Below are positions 13,380 to 63,759 of a DNA stretch of 64,000 nt, piece after piece; the first letter of the stretch is position 1, and each line of letters starts with the position of its first letter. Position numbers and translations under genes: made by a program. The DNA is from Planomicrobium okeanokoites (GTDB lineage Bacteria > Bacillota > Bacilli > Bacillales_A > Planococcaceae). The stretch spans positions 496,001 to 560,000 of the forward strand of contig NZ_QQRS01000002.1 in NCBI RefSeq assembly GCF_003428875.1, written 5' to 3'. Under the pieces are notes generated by a model that made no database searches, had not been told where the DNA came from, and saw only the letters and a program-made list of their open reading frames with translations.

Positions 13380-13515
13380 CTATGAGCGGTATTTTGGGTT
13401 CTATGATCACTTATTTTATTCTATGATCATTCAGCGGATTCTATGATCACTTATTTCATTCTATGATCACTCAGGGGATTCTATGATCACTTATTAGCAT
13501 TCTATGATCATTCAG
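13380..13515. repeat. phased motif array, core TTCTATGATCA
   Basis: Seven copies of CTATGA(TCA) begin at 13380, 13401, 13421, 13441, 13461, 13481 and 13502, i.e. every 20-21 bp. The filler alternates between CTTATT(T) and TTCAG/CTCAGG types, giving a 40-bp higher-order unit. It lies between the convergent kinase and phosphatase genes and extends to 32 bp from the stop of the latter. Not coding. Confidence 0.9.
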
Positions 13516-19484: not shown

Positions 19485-20981
19485 TTGAACTTGAAGTCGA
19501 AATGGATGTTGTCTGGGGTTTCATCATTATTAGCTATCTCGCTTTTATTGCCGACTGCCGATGTCAATGCCAATACATTAAACAAACTTGAACAGCAACA
19601 ACAGGAAGCCGAGCAGAAAAAAGCTGAATTGAACTCAGGCATCAAAGAAAAAGACAAAGAAATCAAAGTTACCAAATCAACATTGGAAACAATCCTTGGG
19701 AAAATCCAGGAATTGAACAATAAAGTCGAGGAAACTGAAGGCAAGATCAACAGTGTCCAAGCCGATATCGATACAACTAAAGCTGAAATCGAAGAATTGA
19801 GAGCTTCAATCGAAGAATTGAAGATCAAAATCGAAGAACGCACTGCATTGTTGCAGGAACGCGCACGCGCAATCCAATTGAGCGGCGGATCTGTTGACTA
19901 CATAGACGTCCTTCTTGGCGCCAACAGCTTTGTTGACTTCATCGACCGTTTCTCTGCCGTCAGCACATTGATCGACGCAGACCGCGAAATCATGCGTGAA
20001 CAGGCAGCAGATAAAGAATTGCTGGCAGAACAGAAAGCTTCTGTCGAGTCAAAACTTGCGCAGCAGGAAGCTCGCAACGCTGAGCTGAAAAGCTTGAAGT
20101 CTGATCTGGACAGCCAGAAAAAACAACAGGGCGTTCTTGCTGAAGAGTTGAAAGCAGAACAGAAACGACTTGAAAGCGAAAAAGGCGAAATGACTGAAGA
20201 ATACGCGGACGTTATCGAAGTCAGCGCAGAATTGGAAAACCAAATTGCGGCAGAGCAAGCTCGTCTTGCTGAATTGGCACGCAAAGCTGAAGAAGAGCGC
20301 CAGGCTAAATTAGCAGCTGAGCGCGCGGCGGCTGAAAAAGCGGCGGCTGAACGTGCAGCAGCTGAAAAAGCGGCAGCCGAGAAAGCAGCGGCAGAACGTG
20401 CTGCGGCTGAAAGAGCAGCAGAAGAACGTGCGGCAGCTGAACGCGCAGCAGCGAAAAACGAAGCTGAGCGCCAGGCAGCCAACGAACGCGAAGCAGCAGC
20501 TAAGCGTGAAGCGGCAGAGAAAGAAAAAGTAAGTGCACCTGCACCAGTCGTTTCAGCTCCAACTGAAGCAGTAAGCTCAGGATTCATCCGTCCAGCATCA
20601 GGCCGCATCTCATCACCATTCGGCTACCGTACAATTTTCGGAGCTAGAGAGTTCCATTACGGTATTGATATTGCCAACGGTACTGGAACAACTATCAGTG
20701 CAGCAGCATCTGGTTATGTAACTTATGCAGGATCTATGGGATCTTACGGTAATGTTGTCATGATGACGCATTCCATCAACGGTAAAACACACGCAACAGT
20801 ATACGCTCACTTGAATTCAATTTCTGTTGGGCAAGGCCAATTCGTTTCCCAGGGCGGCCGCATCGGCGCAATGGGCAGCACAGGACGCTCAAGCGGTCCT
20901 CACCTTCACTTTGAAGTACACGTAGGCCCATGGAACGGCGCGCGCACAAACGCAGTCAACCCATTAAACTACTTTAACTGA
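19485..20981 (+). CDS. M23 murein hydrolase with coiled coil
   Basis: 498 residues. Signal peptide to about residue 31 (cleavage near VNA-N), a long coiled coil (about 35-260), a low-complexity Ala/Glu/Arg stretch (AAAEKAAAERAAAE, about 265-345), then a LytM/M23 domain with HYGIDIA and HLHFEVH zinc motifs. It should cut peptidoglycan cross-links or activate an amidase, as EnvC-like proteins do. TTG start, 9 nt after AAAGGGG. The Ala-rich linker uses near-repeat codons (GCxGCxGAA) and may vary in length between strains. Confidence 0.9.
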   Translation: MNLKSKWMLSGVSSLLAISLLLPTADVNANTLNKLEQQQQEAEQKKAELNSGIKEKDKEIKVTKSTLETILGKIQELNNKVEETEGKINSVQADIDTTKAEIEELRASIEELKIKIEERTALLQERARAIQLSGGSVDYIDVLLGANSFVDFIDRFSAVSTLIDADREIMREQAADKELLAEQKASVESKLAQQEARNAELKSLKSDLDSQKKQQGVLAEELKAEQKRLESEKGEMTEEYADVIEVSAELENQIAAEQARLAELARKAEEERQAKLAAERAAAEKAAAERAAAEKAAAEKAAAERAAAERAAEERAAAERAAAKNEAERQAANEREAAAKREAAEKEKVSAPAPVVSAPTEAVSSGFIRPASGRISSPFGYRTIFGAREFHYGIDIANGTGTTISAAASGYVTYAGSMGSYGNVVMMTHSINGKTHATVYAHLNSISVGQGQFVSQGGRIGAMGSTGRSSGPHLHFEVHVGPWNGARTNAVNPLNYFN

Positions 20982-21433: not shown

Positions 21434-21500
21434 GGCTTCGCGGACGCGAAGCCTTCCTTTAAGGGATTGGAGTTTTTCGCGCGGCGAAAAACATCCGCTG
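21434..21500. repeat. double-hairpin intergenic element, best copy
   Basis: Stem 1 GGCTTCGC-GGAC-GCGAAGCC (21434-21453), linker TTCCTTTAAGGGATTGGA, stem 2 GTTTTTCGC-GCG-GCGAAAAAC (21472-21492), then ATCCGCT. Stem 2 and the following ATCCGCT are repeated at 62.59 kb with a different loop. Confidence 0.8.
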
Positions 21501-21557: not shown

Positions 21558-21690
21558 GCACATATAATTGGTGAAAATCTCGTAAAATTAGCACTGCGCA
21601 CATATTTTCCTGCCACCGCACATAAAACTTCTTTTCCGCACACAAATGTTCCTCACCGCACATAAAATCGGCTCACCGCACATAACTGCC
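21558..21690. repeat. phased motif array, core CCGCACATAA
   Basis: GCACATA/GCACACA cores start at 21558, 21598, 21618, 21638, 21658 and 21678: exactly 20 bp apart, with one decayed unit at about 21578. The filler between cores differs. Located between the convergent M23 gene and the oxidase operon. Confidence 0.9.
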
Positions 21691-24373: not shown

Positions 24374-24467
24374 CGCACGCAAATTGCTTTTTATCGCACG
24401 CATTTTGATTTAATCGCACGCAAACCATTCTTTATCGCACGCATCCTGATTTAATCGCACGCAATAA
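24374..24467. repeat. phased motif array, core ATCGCACGCA
   Basis: CGCACG cores start at 24374, 24395, 24415, 24436 and 24456 (21, 20, 21, 20 bp). A decayed sixth CCGCA follows near 24475. It lies between fnr and the promoter of the oxidase operon, both on the minus strand. Confidence 0.9.
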
Positions 24468-27596: not shown

Positions 27597-27742
27597 ATAA
27601 AAAGCCTTCTGTTCCAAATTGGACAGAAGGACAGGATTTTCATCGGCTGGTTTCCTCCGTCCCTGTCATTGATTGATCAAGGCAGAATGTTTTATAGTTT
27701 GCGATCGTTTTGCCGGTGCAGTTCCATTCGGATACCGCCCTC
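27597..27742 (-). promoter_or_regulatory. panB leader with attenuator, pan-motif candidate
   Basis: A leader of about 178 nt. A conserved-looking hairpin (27631-27666: ACAGG/CCTGT arms enclosing GGAGGAAACCAGCCGATGAAA) is followed by a strong terminator CCTTCTGTCC/GGAACAGAAGG plus U-run at 27598-27630. The arm GGACAG can pair with either partner, so a switch is possible. An RNA element called the pan motif is known upstream of panB in Bacillales; I cannot confirm the match. Confidence 0.6.
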
Positions 27743-37720: not shown

Positions 37721-37830
37721 AACGCCGATAAAACTTTTTAATCGCTCGCATTTTCGATTAATCGCCCGCAAATAATTTTAATCGCCCGCATTTTTGTCTA
37801 ACCGCCCGCAAAAATTTTTAACCGCCCGCA
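37721..37830. repeat. phased motif array, core ATCGCCCGCA
   Basis: Units start at 37721 (AACGCCGATA), 37741, 37761, 37781, 37801 and 37821: exact 20-bp period over six units. Cores read ATCGCTCGCA, ATCGCCCGCA or ACCGCCCGCA; the filler is T/A-rich and variable. Confidence 0.95.
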
Positions 37831-37870: not shown

Positions 37871-38022
37871 AACGCGCATAAGTGATGGCTAATCGAGCGT
37901 ATTTTTTTCTAATCGCGCATAAAATTTTTTAATCGCGCGTATTTTCTCTTAATCGCGCATATCTTCTTCTAATCGCACGCAAGCTGGTCTTAATCGCACG
38001 CATTTCATTCTAATCGCACGCA
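37871..38022. repeat. phased motif array, cores ATCGCGCATA and ATCGCACGCA
   Basis: Units start at 37871, 37892, 37912, 37932, 37952, 37972, 37993 and 38013 (20 or 21 bp). The core shifts from AACGCGCATA through ATCGCGCATA/ATCGCGCGTA to ATCGCACGCA across the array. Confidence 0.95.
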
Positions 38023-38093: not shown

Positions 38094-38133
38094 AAACCAA
38101 AAAGGAAGCTTTTCGCTGCGCGAAAAGCCTCCC
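38094..38133 (-). terminator. terminator of the DUF4064 gene
   Basis: GGAGGCTTTTCGC-GCA-GCGAAAAGCTTCC on the minus strand with a T-rich tail. The loop-closing TTTTCGC/GCGAAAA is the same as in stem 2 of the double-hairpin elements. Confidence 0.8.
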
Positions 38134-50083: not shown

Positions 50084-50174
50084 AACGCCCGTAAAGCACT
50101 CTGGAACGCCCGCAAAATTTTTTAATCGCCCGCAAATCCATTTAATCGCCCGTATAATTATTTTATCGCCCGCA
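50084..50174. repeat. phased motif array, core ATCGCCCGCA
   Basis: Units AACGCCCGTA, AACGCCCGCA, ATCGCCCGCA, ATCGCCCGTA, ATCGCCCGCA start at 50084, 50105, 50125, 50145 and 50165 (21, then 20 bp). Same core as the array at 37.7 kb, and again the first units read GAACGCC. Confidence 0.95.
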
Positions 50175-58604: not shown

Positions 58605-58609
58605 GTTGG

Positions 58610-58700
58610 GGTGCGGGTTGAATCGGTTGGGGTGCGGGTTGAATCGGTTGGGGTGCGGAAATCGGCTTGCGAGGTGCGGTTATCTTCATTTGAGGTGCGG
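58610..58700. repeat. phased motif array, core GGTGCGG
   Basis: GGTGCGG starts at 58610, 58631, 58652, 58673 and 58694: exact 21-bp period. Filler is GTTGAATCGGTTGG in the first units and varies later. Confidence 0.95.
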
Positions 58701-58770
58701 TCGGCAATTATTCAAAGCTATAATACAAAAAAGCGACCATTAAGTTGAAATATTTTCCAATATTTTATTT

Positions 58771-58845
58771 TTAGTTGCGCGATTTCGTCATTTAGTTGCG
58801 GTTAGATTCAATTTAGTTGCGCTTAAACTTGATTTAGTTGCGGTT
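58771..58845. repeat. phased motif array, core TTAGTTGCG
   Basis: TTAGTTGCG starts at 58771, 58792, 58813 and 58834: exact 21-bp period; the words alternate TTAGTTGCGCGATT / TTAGTTGCGGTTAGA. Together with the GGTGCGG array and the link GGCAATTATTCAAAGCT it forms a composite that is repeated at 62.23-62.52 kb. Confidence 0.95.
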
Positions 58846-60907: not shown

Positions 60908-61284
60908 AATCGTTCACGGCCTGGGTATTTTTCGCCCAGGCTTTTTATATTGAAGCCGATTTTCCGGTAGAAACCGACGGCATCCACATCTGTTTCAGCA
61001 AAGATTTCCTGGACCTCGTGACGTTTGGTGACTTCTTCAATCATCCGGGAACCGATTCCGCTGCTGCGGCAATCGACGCCAACTGCAATATGGCGAATCT
61101 CACAGCGCGAAGGGCCTTTCAAGTCGATGCCAATAAACGCCGCTTCACCCATTAGATATAAATTTCGATTCGGATCCTCAATATACCGGGCATATTCCGC
61201 TTCCACCTGCTTCTCCGCCATCGCAGAAGCCATCAATTTCTTGAGCTCCAGGCTGGGTTTGGGTGCTGCAGCTTTACTCAACAC
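60877..61284 (-). CDS. GNAT acetyltransferase
   Basis: 135 residues. Motif A CRSSGIGSRMIEEV and DAVGFYRKIGFNIKSLGEKYPGRERF. Starts inside the PP2C-like gene (11-bp overlap), so translation is coupled. Its last 31 bp are shared with the convergent phosphatase gene. Substrate unknown. Confidence 0.85.
   Translation of the reverse strand: MLSKAAAPKPSLELKKLMASAMAEKQVEAEYARYIEDPNRNLYLMGEAAFIGIDLKGPSRCEIRHIAVGVDCRSSGIGSRMIEEVTKRHEVQEIFAETDVDAVGFYRKIGFNIKSLGEKYPGRERFYCAKTLPSK
60919..60948 (+). terminator. terminator of the histidine phosphatase gene
   Basis: GCCTGGG/CCCAGGC stem with T5. It lies inside the 3' coding part of the convergent GNAT gene. Confidence 0.8.
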
Positions 61285-62110
61285 CCCAACTATCCTCTTT
61301 CGTCACAGTTTGCTGATTGCTGGCGTATAGCGGTTTTTCTGCAACATCCACTGTCCAGGTGACTAACGTGACACTGTCTCGCACCCCTTGTTGCTGAACG
61401 GTTTCAAGCAAGTTCCGGATGCCAGTTTCTTCATTTATTTCATCAAACTGATCGTAGATAATTGCCGGTTCCTTATAAGGTTCGCCCGGACATTCCGTCA
61501 GGCCATCTGTCGCCAATAAGATCTGGTTCCGCCCTTGCCGCAATTCACGCAAGCCGCTGCTGAAGCTCGGCACTGCCTGGGCAAAGCTGTTATTGCGTCC
61601 GATCCACTCGTAAAAATGACGCTGATTCAGCTGATATTGTCCCATTGCCGCAAGTTCTGGATGAAATAGATAGAGCAGGCAATCGCCGACCGAAAACCAA
61701 TACAAGTGCTTGCCTTTGCGGATCGTGATCAAACACGCGGTTTCACCCTGTATCTCCCGGCACGTCGCGAGGAAATCCTTTTGCCGAAAAATCCGCAGCA
61801 GCAAAGCCTCGAGACTCTGAAAAAATTCAAAGCTGACGTCCATGGACAAGAACGATCTGATCTCTTCCTGATGCGCGAGGAATTGCTCCATCACCACTTC
61901 GGCGCTTTCCGCCGTATCATGTGCATCCATGATCATCGCCAATTCCCAGTCCTCTTCCGGATTCGCCCAAGCCAGACAAGCATCCTCGTTCTTCGTCTGC
62001 CCCGCTGCCGAATTGCCGCCAAACCGCCCGATCGCCATCTTCTGCATCTTCCATATATCCGGCCGATCCACAAAATGCTCCTCGCTGCCTACCCAGTCAA
62101 ACTCCTCCAT
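61274..62110 (-). CDS. PP2C-like protein phosphatase
   Basis: 278 residues. GGNSAAGQTKNEDACLAW, MIMDAHDTAES, GDCLLYLF and LLATDGLTE correspond to PP2C metal motifs, but DGHGG reads DAHDT and the protein diverges much from Ser/Thr phosphatases such as PrpC, so activity is uncertain. ATG 62110 is preferred over GTG 62119 (too close to the RBS). Coupled to the downstream GNAT gene. Confidence 0.75.
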   Translation of the reverse strand: MEEFDWVGSEEHFVDRPDIWKMQKMAIGRFGGNSAAGQTKNEDACLAWANPEEDWELAMIMDAHDTAESAEVVMEQFLAHQEEIRSFLSMDVSFEFFQSLEALLLRIFRQKDFLATCREIQGETACLITIRKGKHLYWFSVGDCLLYLFHPELAAMGQYQLNQRHFYEWIGRNNSFAQAVPSFSSGLRELRQGRNQILLATDGLTECPGEPYKEPAIIYDQFDEINEETGIRNLLETVQQQGVRDSVTLVTWTVDVAEKPLYASNQQTVTKEDSWGVE

Positions 62111-62230
62111 CAACCCCACATCCTCTTTTTAATATTCTTACAATTATAGAACATCTGCCAGCGACTGGAAAACTTTTTCGGGATTTATGTGAATAAAATC
62201 GGTGGGGATGTGGCTGGTTTGTGATTGGGA

Positions 62231-62384
62231 TGCGGGTTGATTGGCTTGGGGTGCGGCTTGGATCGTGTGAGGTGCGGGTTGAACCGTTTGGGGTGCGGCT
62301 TGACTCAGTTGGGGTGCGGTTATTCCCTTTTGAGGTGCGGAAATTAGCTTGCGAGGTGCGGTTTTCTCCATCTGGGGTGCGGTC
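62231..62384. repeat. phased motif array, core GGTGCGG
   Basis: TGCGG cores start at 62231, 62252, 62273, 62294, 62315, 62336, 62357 and 62378: eight units at exactly 21 bp. All but the first read GGTGCGG or AGGTGCGG; filler differs between units (GTTGATTGGCTTGG, CTTGGATCGTGTGA and others). Confidence 0.97.
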
Positions 62385-62453
62385 AGCAACTATTCAAAGC
62401 TGGAATGTTAAAAAGAGAATTACAACTTGAAATATTTAACAAATTATTTATTC

Positions 62454-62520
62454 TAGTTGCGCGATTTCACAATTTAGTTGCGGTTAGATTCAATTTAGTT
62501 GCGCTTAAACTTAGTTGCGG
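62454..62520. repeat. phased motif array, core TTAGTTGCG
   Basis: TAGTTGCG starts at 62454, 62475, 62496 and 62512 (21, 21, 16). The words match the array at 58.77 kb nearly base for base; the last step lost 5 bp (GATTT). Confidence 0.93.
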
Positions 62521-62554
62521 TCCCCTAACCAACCCCAACCCCTATTTTGAAAAA

Positions 62555-62617
62555 GCCGCCACTGCCGCGGCAGCTTCCCAAAGACTGGAGTTTTTCGCAC
62601 CGCGAAAAACATCCGCT
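62555..62617. repeat. double-hairpin intergenic element
   Basis: Stem 1 GCCGC...GCGGC, linker TTCCCAAAGACTGGA, stem 2 GTTTTTCGC-ACC-GCGAAAAAC (62590-62610), then ATCCGCT as at 21.49 kb. Confidence 0.8.
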
Positions 62618-62649: not shown

Positions 62650-62680
62650 AAAAAAAGACGGCCCCAGAGGCCGCCTCCCT
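62650..62680 (-). terminator. terminator of the ferredoxin-NADP reductase gene
   Basis: GGCGGCCTCTGGGGCCGTC stem followed by T7 on the minus strand. Confidence 0.85.
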
Positions 62681-63729
62681 TAACTCATCATCTGTTTGAC
62701 CAATTCTTTGTTGCGCTTCTTGAAGATTTCATTGTGCGACGAGACCATGGCGATTTTATTGGCGTCGGGCTGGATGTAGCTTTTCGCCTGGTTGACGGCG
62801 TTGGCTGCGTCCTGGAATGTGCCGGCGATGAGATTGAGTTTGCCGGGATGCTGGAGGATATCGCCGGCGGCAAAGAGGCCATCGACCGATGATTCGCTTT
62901 TAGGCGTTCCCGCAATATAGTAATCATCCGCAATCTCAATATCCAAAGGGCTGTTGCCGAGCAAGCTGATGTCGCGCTCATAGCCGTGGTTGATAATGAC
63001 TTCATCTATAGGAAGCAGGATTTTCTCCGCAGTTACCCGATTGGTCAACTCAACGAGCTCGATGGCATCGCGGCTGTCTGAAGCGATCAACCGGCTGATG
63101 GATGTATTCAAATAACACACGACAGAACTCCCGTGCAATTGGCTGACCTGGGCTTCGTGCCCTGCCAGCGCATCTTTCCGGTAGCTGACGAATACTTTGT
63201 CGGCAATCGGCTCGAGCTCATTGGCCCAGTCGATGGCCGAGTTGCCGCCTCCTGAAATGAGGACGGTCTTCCCTTTGAAACGTTCGAGCGATTTGACGGT
63301 GTAATTAAGATTGGATACTTCAAAGCGCTCGGCGCCTTCAATCTCCAGTTTCTGCGGATTGAGGATGCCGCCGCCGACTGCGACGATCACCGTTTTGGAG
63401 AAATGGATCTGGCCGGACGAGCCTTCCAGCCTGAACAAGCCATCCTCCTGTTTCTCAATGCTTTGGACTTTCTCATTGAGAACCACTTCCGGGTTGAATG
63501 TCAGTCCCTGCGCCACCAATTGGTCGATCAGCTTAGCACCCGGCATCGGCGGCTGACCGCCCACATCCCAGATCATCTTCTCGGGATAAACGTGGATTTT
63601 CCCGCCCAGGCGCGGCTGGAACTCGATGATTTTCGTTTTCATTTCCCGAAGGCCGCTGTAGAAAGCTGAATATAATCCTGCTGGGCCTCCGCCGATAATG
63701 GTGACGTCAAAAACTTCTATTTCATTCAT
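62680..63729 (-). CDS. ferredoxin--NADP(+) reductase, YumC type
   Basis: 349 residues. VTIIGGGPAGLYSAFYSGLREMKTKIIE binds FAD; VLISGGGNSAIDWANEL binds NADPH; no CxxC, which separates it from thioredoxin reductase. GLFAAGDILQHPGKLNLIAGTFQDA is the C-terminal FAD contact. This is the thioredoxin-reductase-like FNR of Bacillus (YumC), reducing ferredoxin or flavodoxin. ATG 63729 is 9 nt after AAAGG. Divergent from the Fur-controlled ABC gene, which may link it to iron supply. Confidence 0.92.
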   Translation of the reverse strand: MNEIEVFDVTIIGGGPAGLYSAFYSGLREMKTKIIEFQPRLGGKIHVYPEKMIWDVGGQPPMPGAKLIDQLVAQGLTFNPEVVLNEKVQSIEKQEDGLFRLEGSSGQIHFSKTVIVAVGGGILNPQKLEIEGAERFEVSNLNYTVKSLERFKGKTVLISGGGNSAIDWANELEPIADKVFVSYRKDALAGHEAQVSQLHGSSVVCYLNTSISRLIASDSRDAIELVELTNRVTAEKILLPIDEVIINHGYERDISLLGNSPLDIEIADDYYIAGTPKSESSVDGLFAAGDILQHPGKLNLIAGTFQDAANAVNQAKSYIQPDANKIAMVSSHNEIFKKRNKELVKQMMS

Positions 63730-63759
63730 TAGAATCATCCTTTTCTCTTAAGTTGACCG

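Follow-up and report, generated by a model that had tools for sequence, protein, structure and literature searches.

Array A, the phased repeat at 62229-62382 of the window (the whole stretch of 64,000 nucleotides analysed here), is one member of a genome-wide class of phased intergenic arrays with units of 20 or 21 bp. These arrays favour convergent gene ends, lie mostly beyond terminators and in many cases are linked to a hairpin with a covarying stem. Comparison of related genomes indicates that the length of the arrays and their cores are probably under selection. The class of 20-21-nt repeats is already known; the covarying hairpin linked to the arrays is new here.

Array A carries TGCGG on the plus strand at 62231, 62252, 62273, 62294, 62315, 62336, 62357 and 62378, every step being 21 bp. 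The sequence-only reading had described eight GGTGCGG units: the eight cores and the exact 21-bp steps stand, but only seven of the eight read GGTGCGG, the first unit being GATGCGG, and the core coordinates it gave are right for TGCGG, whereas GGTGCGG begins two bases before. The array is not a chance feature: a search of the 3.30-Mb genome for GGTGCGG-N14-GGTGCGG gives 26 hits, 13 in each orientation, and a search for the reversed pattern gives none. It is located between called genes, in the following setting:

61274..62119, minus strand: PP2C-type phosphatase gene, downstream of the element
62229..62382, plus strand: A-type array of 8 units, core TTTG(A/G)GGTGCGG, period 21 exact, first core GATGCGG
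62383..62453, unstranded: spacer between arrays A and B (locus alignment, pair-gap count)
62454..62520, plus strand: B-type array of four TAGTTGCG units, steps 21, 21 and 16
62547..62576, minus strand: terminator-like hairpin with T-run, between the linked hairpin and the B array (by eye)
62592..62608, unstranded: linked hairpin TTTTCGC-ACC-GCGAAAA
62648..62679, minus strand: intrinsic terminator of the oxidoreductase gene, upstream of the hairpin and arrays on the minus strand (by eye)
62680..63738, minus strand: pyridine nucleotide-disulphide oxidoreductase gene, 3' end towards the element

Read along the minus strand, the oxidoreductase gene is followed by its terminator, the linked hairpin, the second terminator-like hairpin, arrays B and A with the spacer between them, and the PP2C gene. 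The terminator-like hairpin at 62547..62576 is present in all five aligned genomes, and the TTTAGTTGCG array that adjoins A (62454-62520) contains one slip, the 16-bp step.

A strict scan of the window finds nine intergenic arrays with a period of 20 or 21 bp, the home pair included, and a tenth array at contig position 515767 that is coding. The remaining intergenic arrays, together with two further linked hairpins, are:

13399..13491, plus strand: TTCTATGATCACT array, 20 bp (strict scan)
21474..21490, unstranded: linked hairpin TTTTCGC-GCG-GCGAAAA (palindrome search)
21597..21682, minus strand: TTTATGTGCG array, 20 bp (strict scan)
37738..37830, plus strand: TTAATCGCCCGCA array, 20 bp (strict scan)
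37890..37976, plus strand: TTAATCGCGCATA array, 20 bp (strict scan)
38110..38126, unstranded: linked hairpin TTTTCGC-TGC-GCGAAAA (palindrome search)
50107..50172, plus strand: TTAATCGCCCGCA array, 20 bp (strict scan)
58605..58700, plus strand: second A-type array, 21 bp, between convergent genes (strict scan)
58770..58842, plus strand: second B-type array, 21 bp (strict scan)

The window also contains a CGCACGCAAA repeat at 24374-24464, missed by the strict scan, whose 20-bp unit has indels and which looks like a decayed array; a repeat of 15, 30 and 45 bp at 20312-20479, with units such as AGCAGCTGAACGAGC, that is probably a coding Ala/Glu-rich stretch; and, at 27653-27741 on the minus strand, the Rfam pan motif (RF01749, 60.9 bits), the sole Rfam match of the window at the gathering threshold.

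Under a criterion of exact phase (one 6-mer in three units, or one 5-mer in four, all at a single step), 440,726 bp of the same genome contain arrays at 20 and 21 bp and hardly any at other periods, except for the multiples at 40-42. The count by period covers nine segments and 1.64 Mb (641 kb from this genome, 320 kb each from G007, G026 and G142, and 40 kb from G005), the five source genomes being close Planococcus-like relatives. Intergenic DNA in these segments holds 57 arrays with a period of 20 and 94 with a period of 21, and no other period from 12 to 31 has more than two; the called genes hold none at period 20 and eight at period 21; the array densities are not genome averages, because the segments were partly picked around GGTGCGG hits.

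The cores can be classified into some 14 families across the five genomes, compiled by eye, most of which have a consensus made of TTTR and a variable GC-rich half; 130 of the 151 intergenic arrays fall into one of these families and 21 are unassigned. Core logos, drawn from units selected by an exact anchor, display a short sequence that is conserved in all units of an array. Nine of the 14 cores have no isolated copy outside arrays in the 641 kb of this genome, and the other five have between one and six, all but one in coding DNA. Where two or more assigned arrays share an intergenic region, they point in the same direction in 23 of 23 regions. With orthologous loci counted separately, such pairs include: A followed by B in 10 of 10 cases, with a gap of 68-73 bp in nine and of 52 bp in one; C followed by C in eight cases, with gaps of 94-103 bp; and five more pairs of other kinds. 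The sequence of the A-to-B spacers (62383-62453 and its sisters) diverges while their length is held in those nine pairs. The T-first direction of the cores opposes the leading strand in 36 of the 46 arrays assigned in this genome; for convergent regions of the five species the figure is 44 of 52. We do not use these counts as evidence, as T-first direction and leading strand were set by hand for each segment and loci are shared between species. The orientation of GGTGCGG places in single-contig relatives (for instance, G014) is mixed as judged by eye.

The home intergenic region is also found in G007, G005, G026 and G142, with closely conserved flanks. Degenerate copies included, A-type units number eight in this genome, five in G007, five in G005, nine in G026 and two in G142, and all of their steps are 21 bp, so the expectation that unit number changes in whole 21-bp steps is borne out at this locus; an extra CCGCACC in G142, 28 bp beyond the last A unit, aligns as flank. 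The 16-bp step of the B array is there because five bases were lost in this genome, and G026 has no exact copy of the B core. Taken together, the changes at the home locus suggest that whole-unit change is the rule and that a slip is possible. The same regularity is displayed by the spacings of 17 exact cores at any distance up to 45 bp, of which 365 of 369 are 20, 21, 40, 41 or 42, the exceptions being 16, 19, 19 and 28, with 22 absent; phase-breaking indels as common as phase-keeping ones, the pattern that would speak against selection on spacing, are not seen.

Selection on spacing had been proposed from the exact phasing of array A, and the fillers support it. Across 137 core-to-core matches of at least 65% identity between orthologous regions, the fillers contain 361 substitutions in 1818 sites and only one length change (20 to 21). 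Array-free regions of at least 70% identity, treated with the same aligner, gave 837 gap events for 4323 substitutions (a ratio of 0.194), which predicts about 70 length changes. In a milder control, which takes 14-column windows of similar identity, 408 of the 2189 windows contain a gap, and about 25 length changes are predicted. Family-defined cores differ at 213 of 3787 sites (5.6%) and fillers at 569 of 2617 (22%), in counts that pool ten overlapping species pairs with shared lineages; the filler thus differs about four times as often as the core across species pairs, as had been anticipated, although the arrays were first found by the exact-phase scan, and detection that favours intact cores in one species may halve the apparent core rate, leaving the indel result unaffected. 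For intergenic DNA free of arrays, the number of differing sites is 8135 of 55053, or 4323 of 34855 in better-aligned regions (12-15%). Defining the cores from one of the compared species, which is biased, or family-wide gives nearly the same core and filler figures. Gap lengths in whole-region alignments peak at 21 and 42 and are otherwise noisy, and orthologous arrays are sometimes lost or gained. That orthologous loci have retained both core and phase suggests that the copies themselves are under selection.

With genes called by an in-house script, the share of intergenic regions of at least 100 bp that carry an array is 44 of 119 where the flanking genes converge, 61 of 478 where they are codirectional and 14 of 197 where they diverge (convergent versus the rest, Fisher p 5e-11, uncorrected for shared ancestry among the five genomes). 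A rough terminator finder places an intrinsic terminator before the array at 111 of the 149 gene ends that face one, only after it at 16, and nowhere at 22; in array-free regions, a terminator lies within 200 bp of 299 of 557 gene ends, a window that differs from the one used in the array count. Since 38 of the 149 gene ends have no terminator before the array, some arrays may be transcribed.

Words enriched in the array flanks led to the palindrome TTTTCGC-N2..6-GCGAAAA. This hairpin occurs in 58 of 119 array-bearing intergenic regions versus 12 of 863 array-free ones (60 bp or more; 1.4%), or in 54 of 105 versus 10 of 278 when regions of 250-1000 bp only are considered, and inside a called gene once. 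The whole genome contains 32 copies of it and none of the reversed pattern; 31 of the 32 are near a strict array and the remaining one is near an array of mixed spacing. The 15 copies in the sampled segments are 94-282 bp from an array midpoint. The linkage was tested on the 17 copies outside these segments. In 16 cases a strict array is no more than 350 bp away; beside the remaining copy (C23:109573), GGACAGTATT units can be made out by eye, with steps that mix 20 and 21 bp. Side and distance of the hairpin vary by core family. Among 101 distinct hairpins the stem covaries and the loop, of 2-4 nt, is free in sequence: the pair outside the searched stem is C-G in 53, T-A in 35, G-C in nine and A-T in three, with one unpaired; and the second pair out is G-C in 90 and C-G in seven, with one unpaired. 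The hairpin could form as cruciform DNA, as single-stranded DNA or as RNA.

Copy numbers of the hairpin are highest in this genus (69 in G142, 46 in G007, 35 in G005, 26 in G026 and 25 in G084, besides the 32 here). G153, from another genus, has 15, and at least one copy is found in 63 of 121 family genomes. In G153, a 20/21-bp array accompanies three of eight hairpin stretches and the other five have no strict array, and one stretch of G015 contains three hairpins and no strict array. The exact hairpin is missing from 61 of 119 array regions, about half of them; hairpin and array are therefore linked, yet the array can stand alone. In G142:C1:341000-368000 (L307, L308), dense hairpins and ATATCCGCCGATGAG-type arrays extend over 27 kb, partly as copies about 190 bp apart.

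Our best explanation, to which we give roughly an even chance of being correct, is that the array lines up repeated binding sites along one face of the helix for a candidate sequence-specific DNA-binding protein, within a probable boundary element made of a hairpin plus an array. Each unit of 20-21 bp would consist of neutral filler and a core of 10-13 bp, in which an AT-rich TTTR half is joined to a GC-rich half that is specific to the family. A spacing of two turns would bring all cores to the same face of the helix, where bound proteins would touch and assemble cooperatively; the filler would be free to mutate and would rarely change in length because loss of phase would break the assembly. 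The array would then be one half of an element located between transcription units, most likely a boundary that acts as a roadblock to read-through transcription or as a topological insulator, which is the simplest fit to the convergent gene ends. It is from the two-turn steps, the constrained cores, the free filler, the lack of single cores and the position beyond terminators that we infer proteins along one DNA face. Several findings argue against this explanation: some 14 cores would need many readers, or one of odd specificity; some arrays may be transcribed, given the 38 gene ends that have no terminator ahead of the array; 61 of the 119 array regions have no exact hairpin, and G015 and G153 have hairpins without a strict array; the Peribacillus-type arrays inspected appear by eye to lie upstream of a gene, without this hairpin; and arrays at orthologous loci are in some cases gained or lost. 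A more specific version, in which dozens of boundary elements carry some 14 'address' cores, each with its own candidate protein that polymerises along the helix face at two-turn steps, is rather improbable.

The dispersal of the arrays could also be that of a non-autonomous mobile element, with iteron-like cores for a trans-acting replication or transposition protein, the hairpin as a processing structure, and every core family following its own protein. The whole composite of array, spacer, hairpin and terminator is copied at two G142 loci, hairpins and arrays are clustered and partly tandem over the 27 kb of that genome, and a 478-bp stretch of hairpin and array in G007 is absent from G026 between closely similar flanks; this stretch has GGCTGG at both edges and may be a gain or a loss. 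However, cores and phase kept at orthologous loci are unexpected of relics, loops that are short and free in sequence hold no nick motif, no constant target duplication is evident, and the genome lacks both families searched, the Y1 transposase (PF01797) and the TnpB-like domain (PF07282). We regard a mobile element as unlikely. It accounts for dispersal better than for conservation, and the two explanations can be combined in an old mobile unit that turned boundary. It is harder still to see the arrays and the hairpin as an RNA element, transcribed as a small RNA or acting within read-through RNA as a signal for protein loading or termination. Stem pairing kept by compensatory changes around a free loop would suit RNA, as would the terminator found after the hairpin in several composites, one of them between divergent genes; the 52-nt repeats of B. 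coagulans are transcribed, according to the available parts of PMC8161180 and PMC8625621. Against this, most arrays are beyond the terminators of the genes that face them, exact steps of 20-21 bp with 22 absent fit the DNA helix better than a flexible RNA, the sole Rfam match of the window is away from the arrays, and the home-locus arrays come after, not before, the terminator-like hairpin.

A neutral satellite, in which units multiply by slippage or unequal exchange and the period is inherited without selection, would explain why unit number varies between close species and why neighbouring loci can have near-identical arrays. It predicts uniform divergence, whereas core and filler differ at 5.6% and 22% of sites (the detection bias lowers the core figure at most by about half); length changes are 25 to 70 times rarer than expected, many unrelated cores share nothing except the period, and the hairpin linkage does not follow from it. 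We hold it to be quite improbable. Poorest of all are the chances of a decoy that titrates a transcription factor, or of a coding repeat. Decoy sites were rejected, as nine of the 14 cores have no isolated operator-like copies in the 641 kb. Coding is suggested by 21 bp being seven codons and by both strands being open across array A, but the 81-aa frame over the array has no Pfam match, and no steady repeat can be encoded at a period of 20 bp, which is that of 57 of the 151 intergenic arrays.

REP/BIME elements are palindromic intergenic hairpins with compensated stems and many copies. The linked hairpin is like them in its many intergenic copies and its covarying stem; unlike them, it has a phased array as its partner, is accompanied by no Y1/RAYT transposase, and reaches a high copy number only in some relatives. 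RAYT-driven REP was rejected, with no PF01797 match in the genome and the control found in five of 14 genomes. Plasmid iterons and the 20-bp parC repeats of pSK41 bound by ParR are direct repeats near two helix turns that are bound cooperatively on one face, and iterons beside a hairpin mark rolling-circle origins. The arrays described here differ from these in being chromosomal, with many loci per genome and some 14 cores, and in having a phosphatase and an oxidoreductase as flanking genes at the home locus; the likeness to a rolling-circle origin does not extend to a conserved nick motif in the hairpin loop. The TTTR of the cores resembles the TAM/PAM of RNA-guided TnpB/Cas12f. RNA-guided target sites were rejected, as PF07282 has no match in the genome, with the control found in six of 14 genomes. 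A phage feature was rejected as well: triple GGTGCGG is found in 57 viral-contig stretches (one match in 56, two in one), presumably by chance in GC-rich DNA. Pairs of TTTATCAGCG occur in one viral-contig stretch.

Arrays of this kind are also found beyond the genus. Pairs of TTTRTNNGCG at 20/21 bp occur in 31 of 121 family genomes, at up to 144 places per genome, and the reversed control in 17 of 121, mostly at few places; three of these, with 25 and 6, 11 and 19, and 17 and 1, are read as carrying putative arrays of the reversed shape. Arrays of other genera have TTTATCAGCG, TTTATTTGCG and TTTATCCGCG in common with those of this genome. In a set of 80 named Bacillales loci, 20/21-bp arrays with other cores are found in Peribacillus, Fictibacillus, Neobacillus and others; the exact hairpin is absent from seven such loci (up to 450 bp on each side), and the arrays of Peribacillus-type loci appear, as judged by eye, to lie upstream of a gene. 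A Peribacillus-type CACGAGTAAA array with alternating fillers has a similar place in L103, L106, L107, L111, L119 and L123, and a different 9-bp hairpin, ATTCCACTT..AAGTGGAAT, precedes the array by about 120 bp in three Peribacillus-type loci examined.

The home array belongs to the class of 20-21-nt constant-size repeats described by Subirana & Messeguer (2021, PMC8161180). As given in the available part of that paper, Bacillus repeats of 20-21 nt and 52 nt have a constant length and a variable sequence, 20-21 nt corresponds to two helix turns, and a polymerising protein or small RNAs are suggested; prokaryotic satellites have also been surveyed (PMC6749651, available part). In keeping with the class as it is described there, with at least four regular units of 20-21 nt, array A has eight units with all steps at 21; it is non-coding (between genes, no Pfam match, and with 20-bp sisters that cannot be steadily coded); several families of equal length occur per genome; and every unit holds a short signal. 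Some repeats of the class have 40-41 nt, according to the same part, and multiples at 40-42 occur here too, whereas the families there are species-specific, B. simplex and B. muralis excepted, and some cores here recur across genera. PMC8161180, in the text available, uses none of the terms palindrome, hairpin, terminator, inverted repeat or convergent, and no report of phase selection measured against substitutions, of convergent position or of a hairpin link was found in print (subscription journals were mostly outside the search).

As published, the class is one of constant length, with no common sequence and no function; for one group of bacteria, the present data indicate selection on length and core, locate the arrays relative to genes and tie many of them to a covarying hairpin, which makes the function of 20-21-nt repeats testable. 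Were the reading of the cores as addresses true, the arrays would form a bacterial system of insulators whose addresses can evolve, and the so far unexplained 20-21-nt repeats of Firmicutes would have a function.
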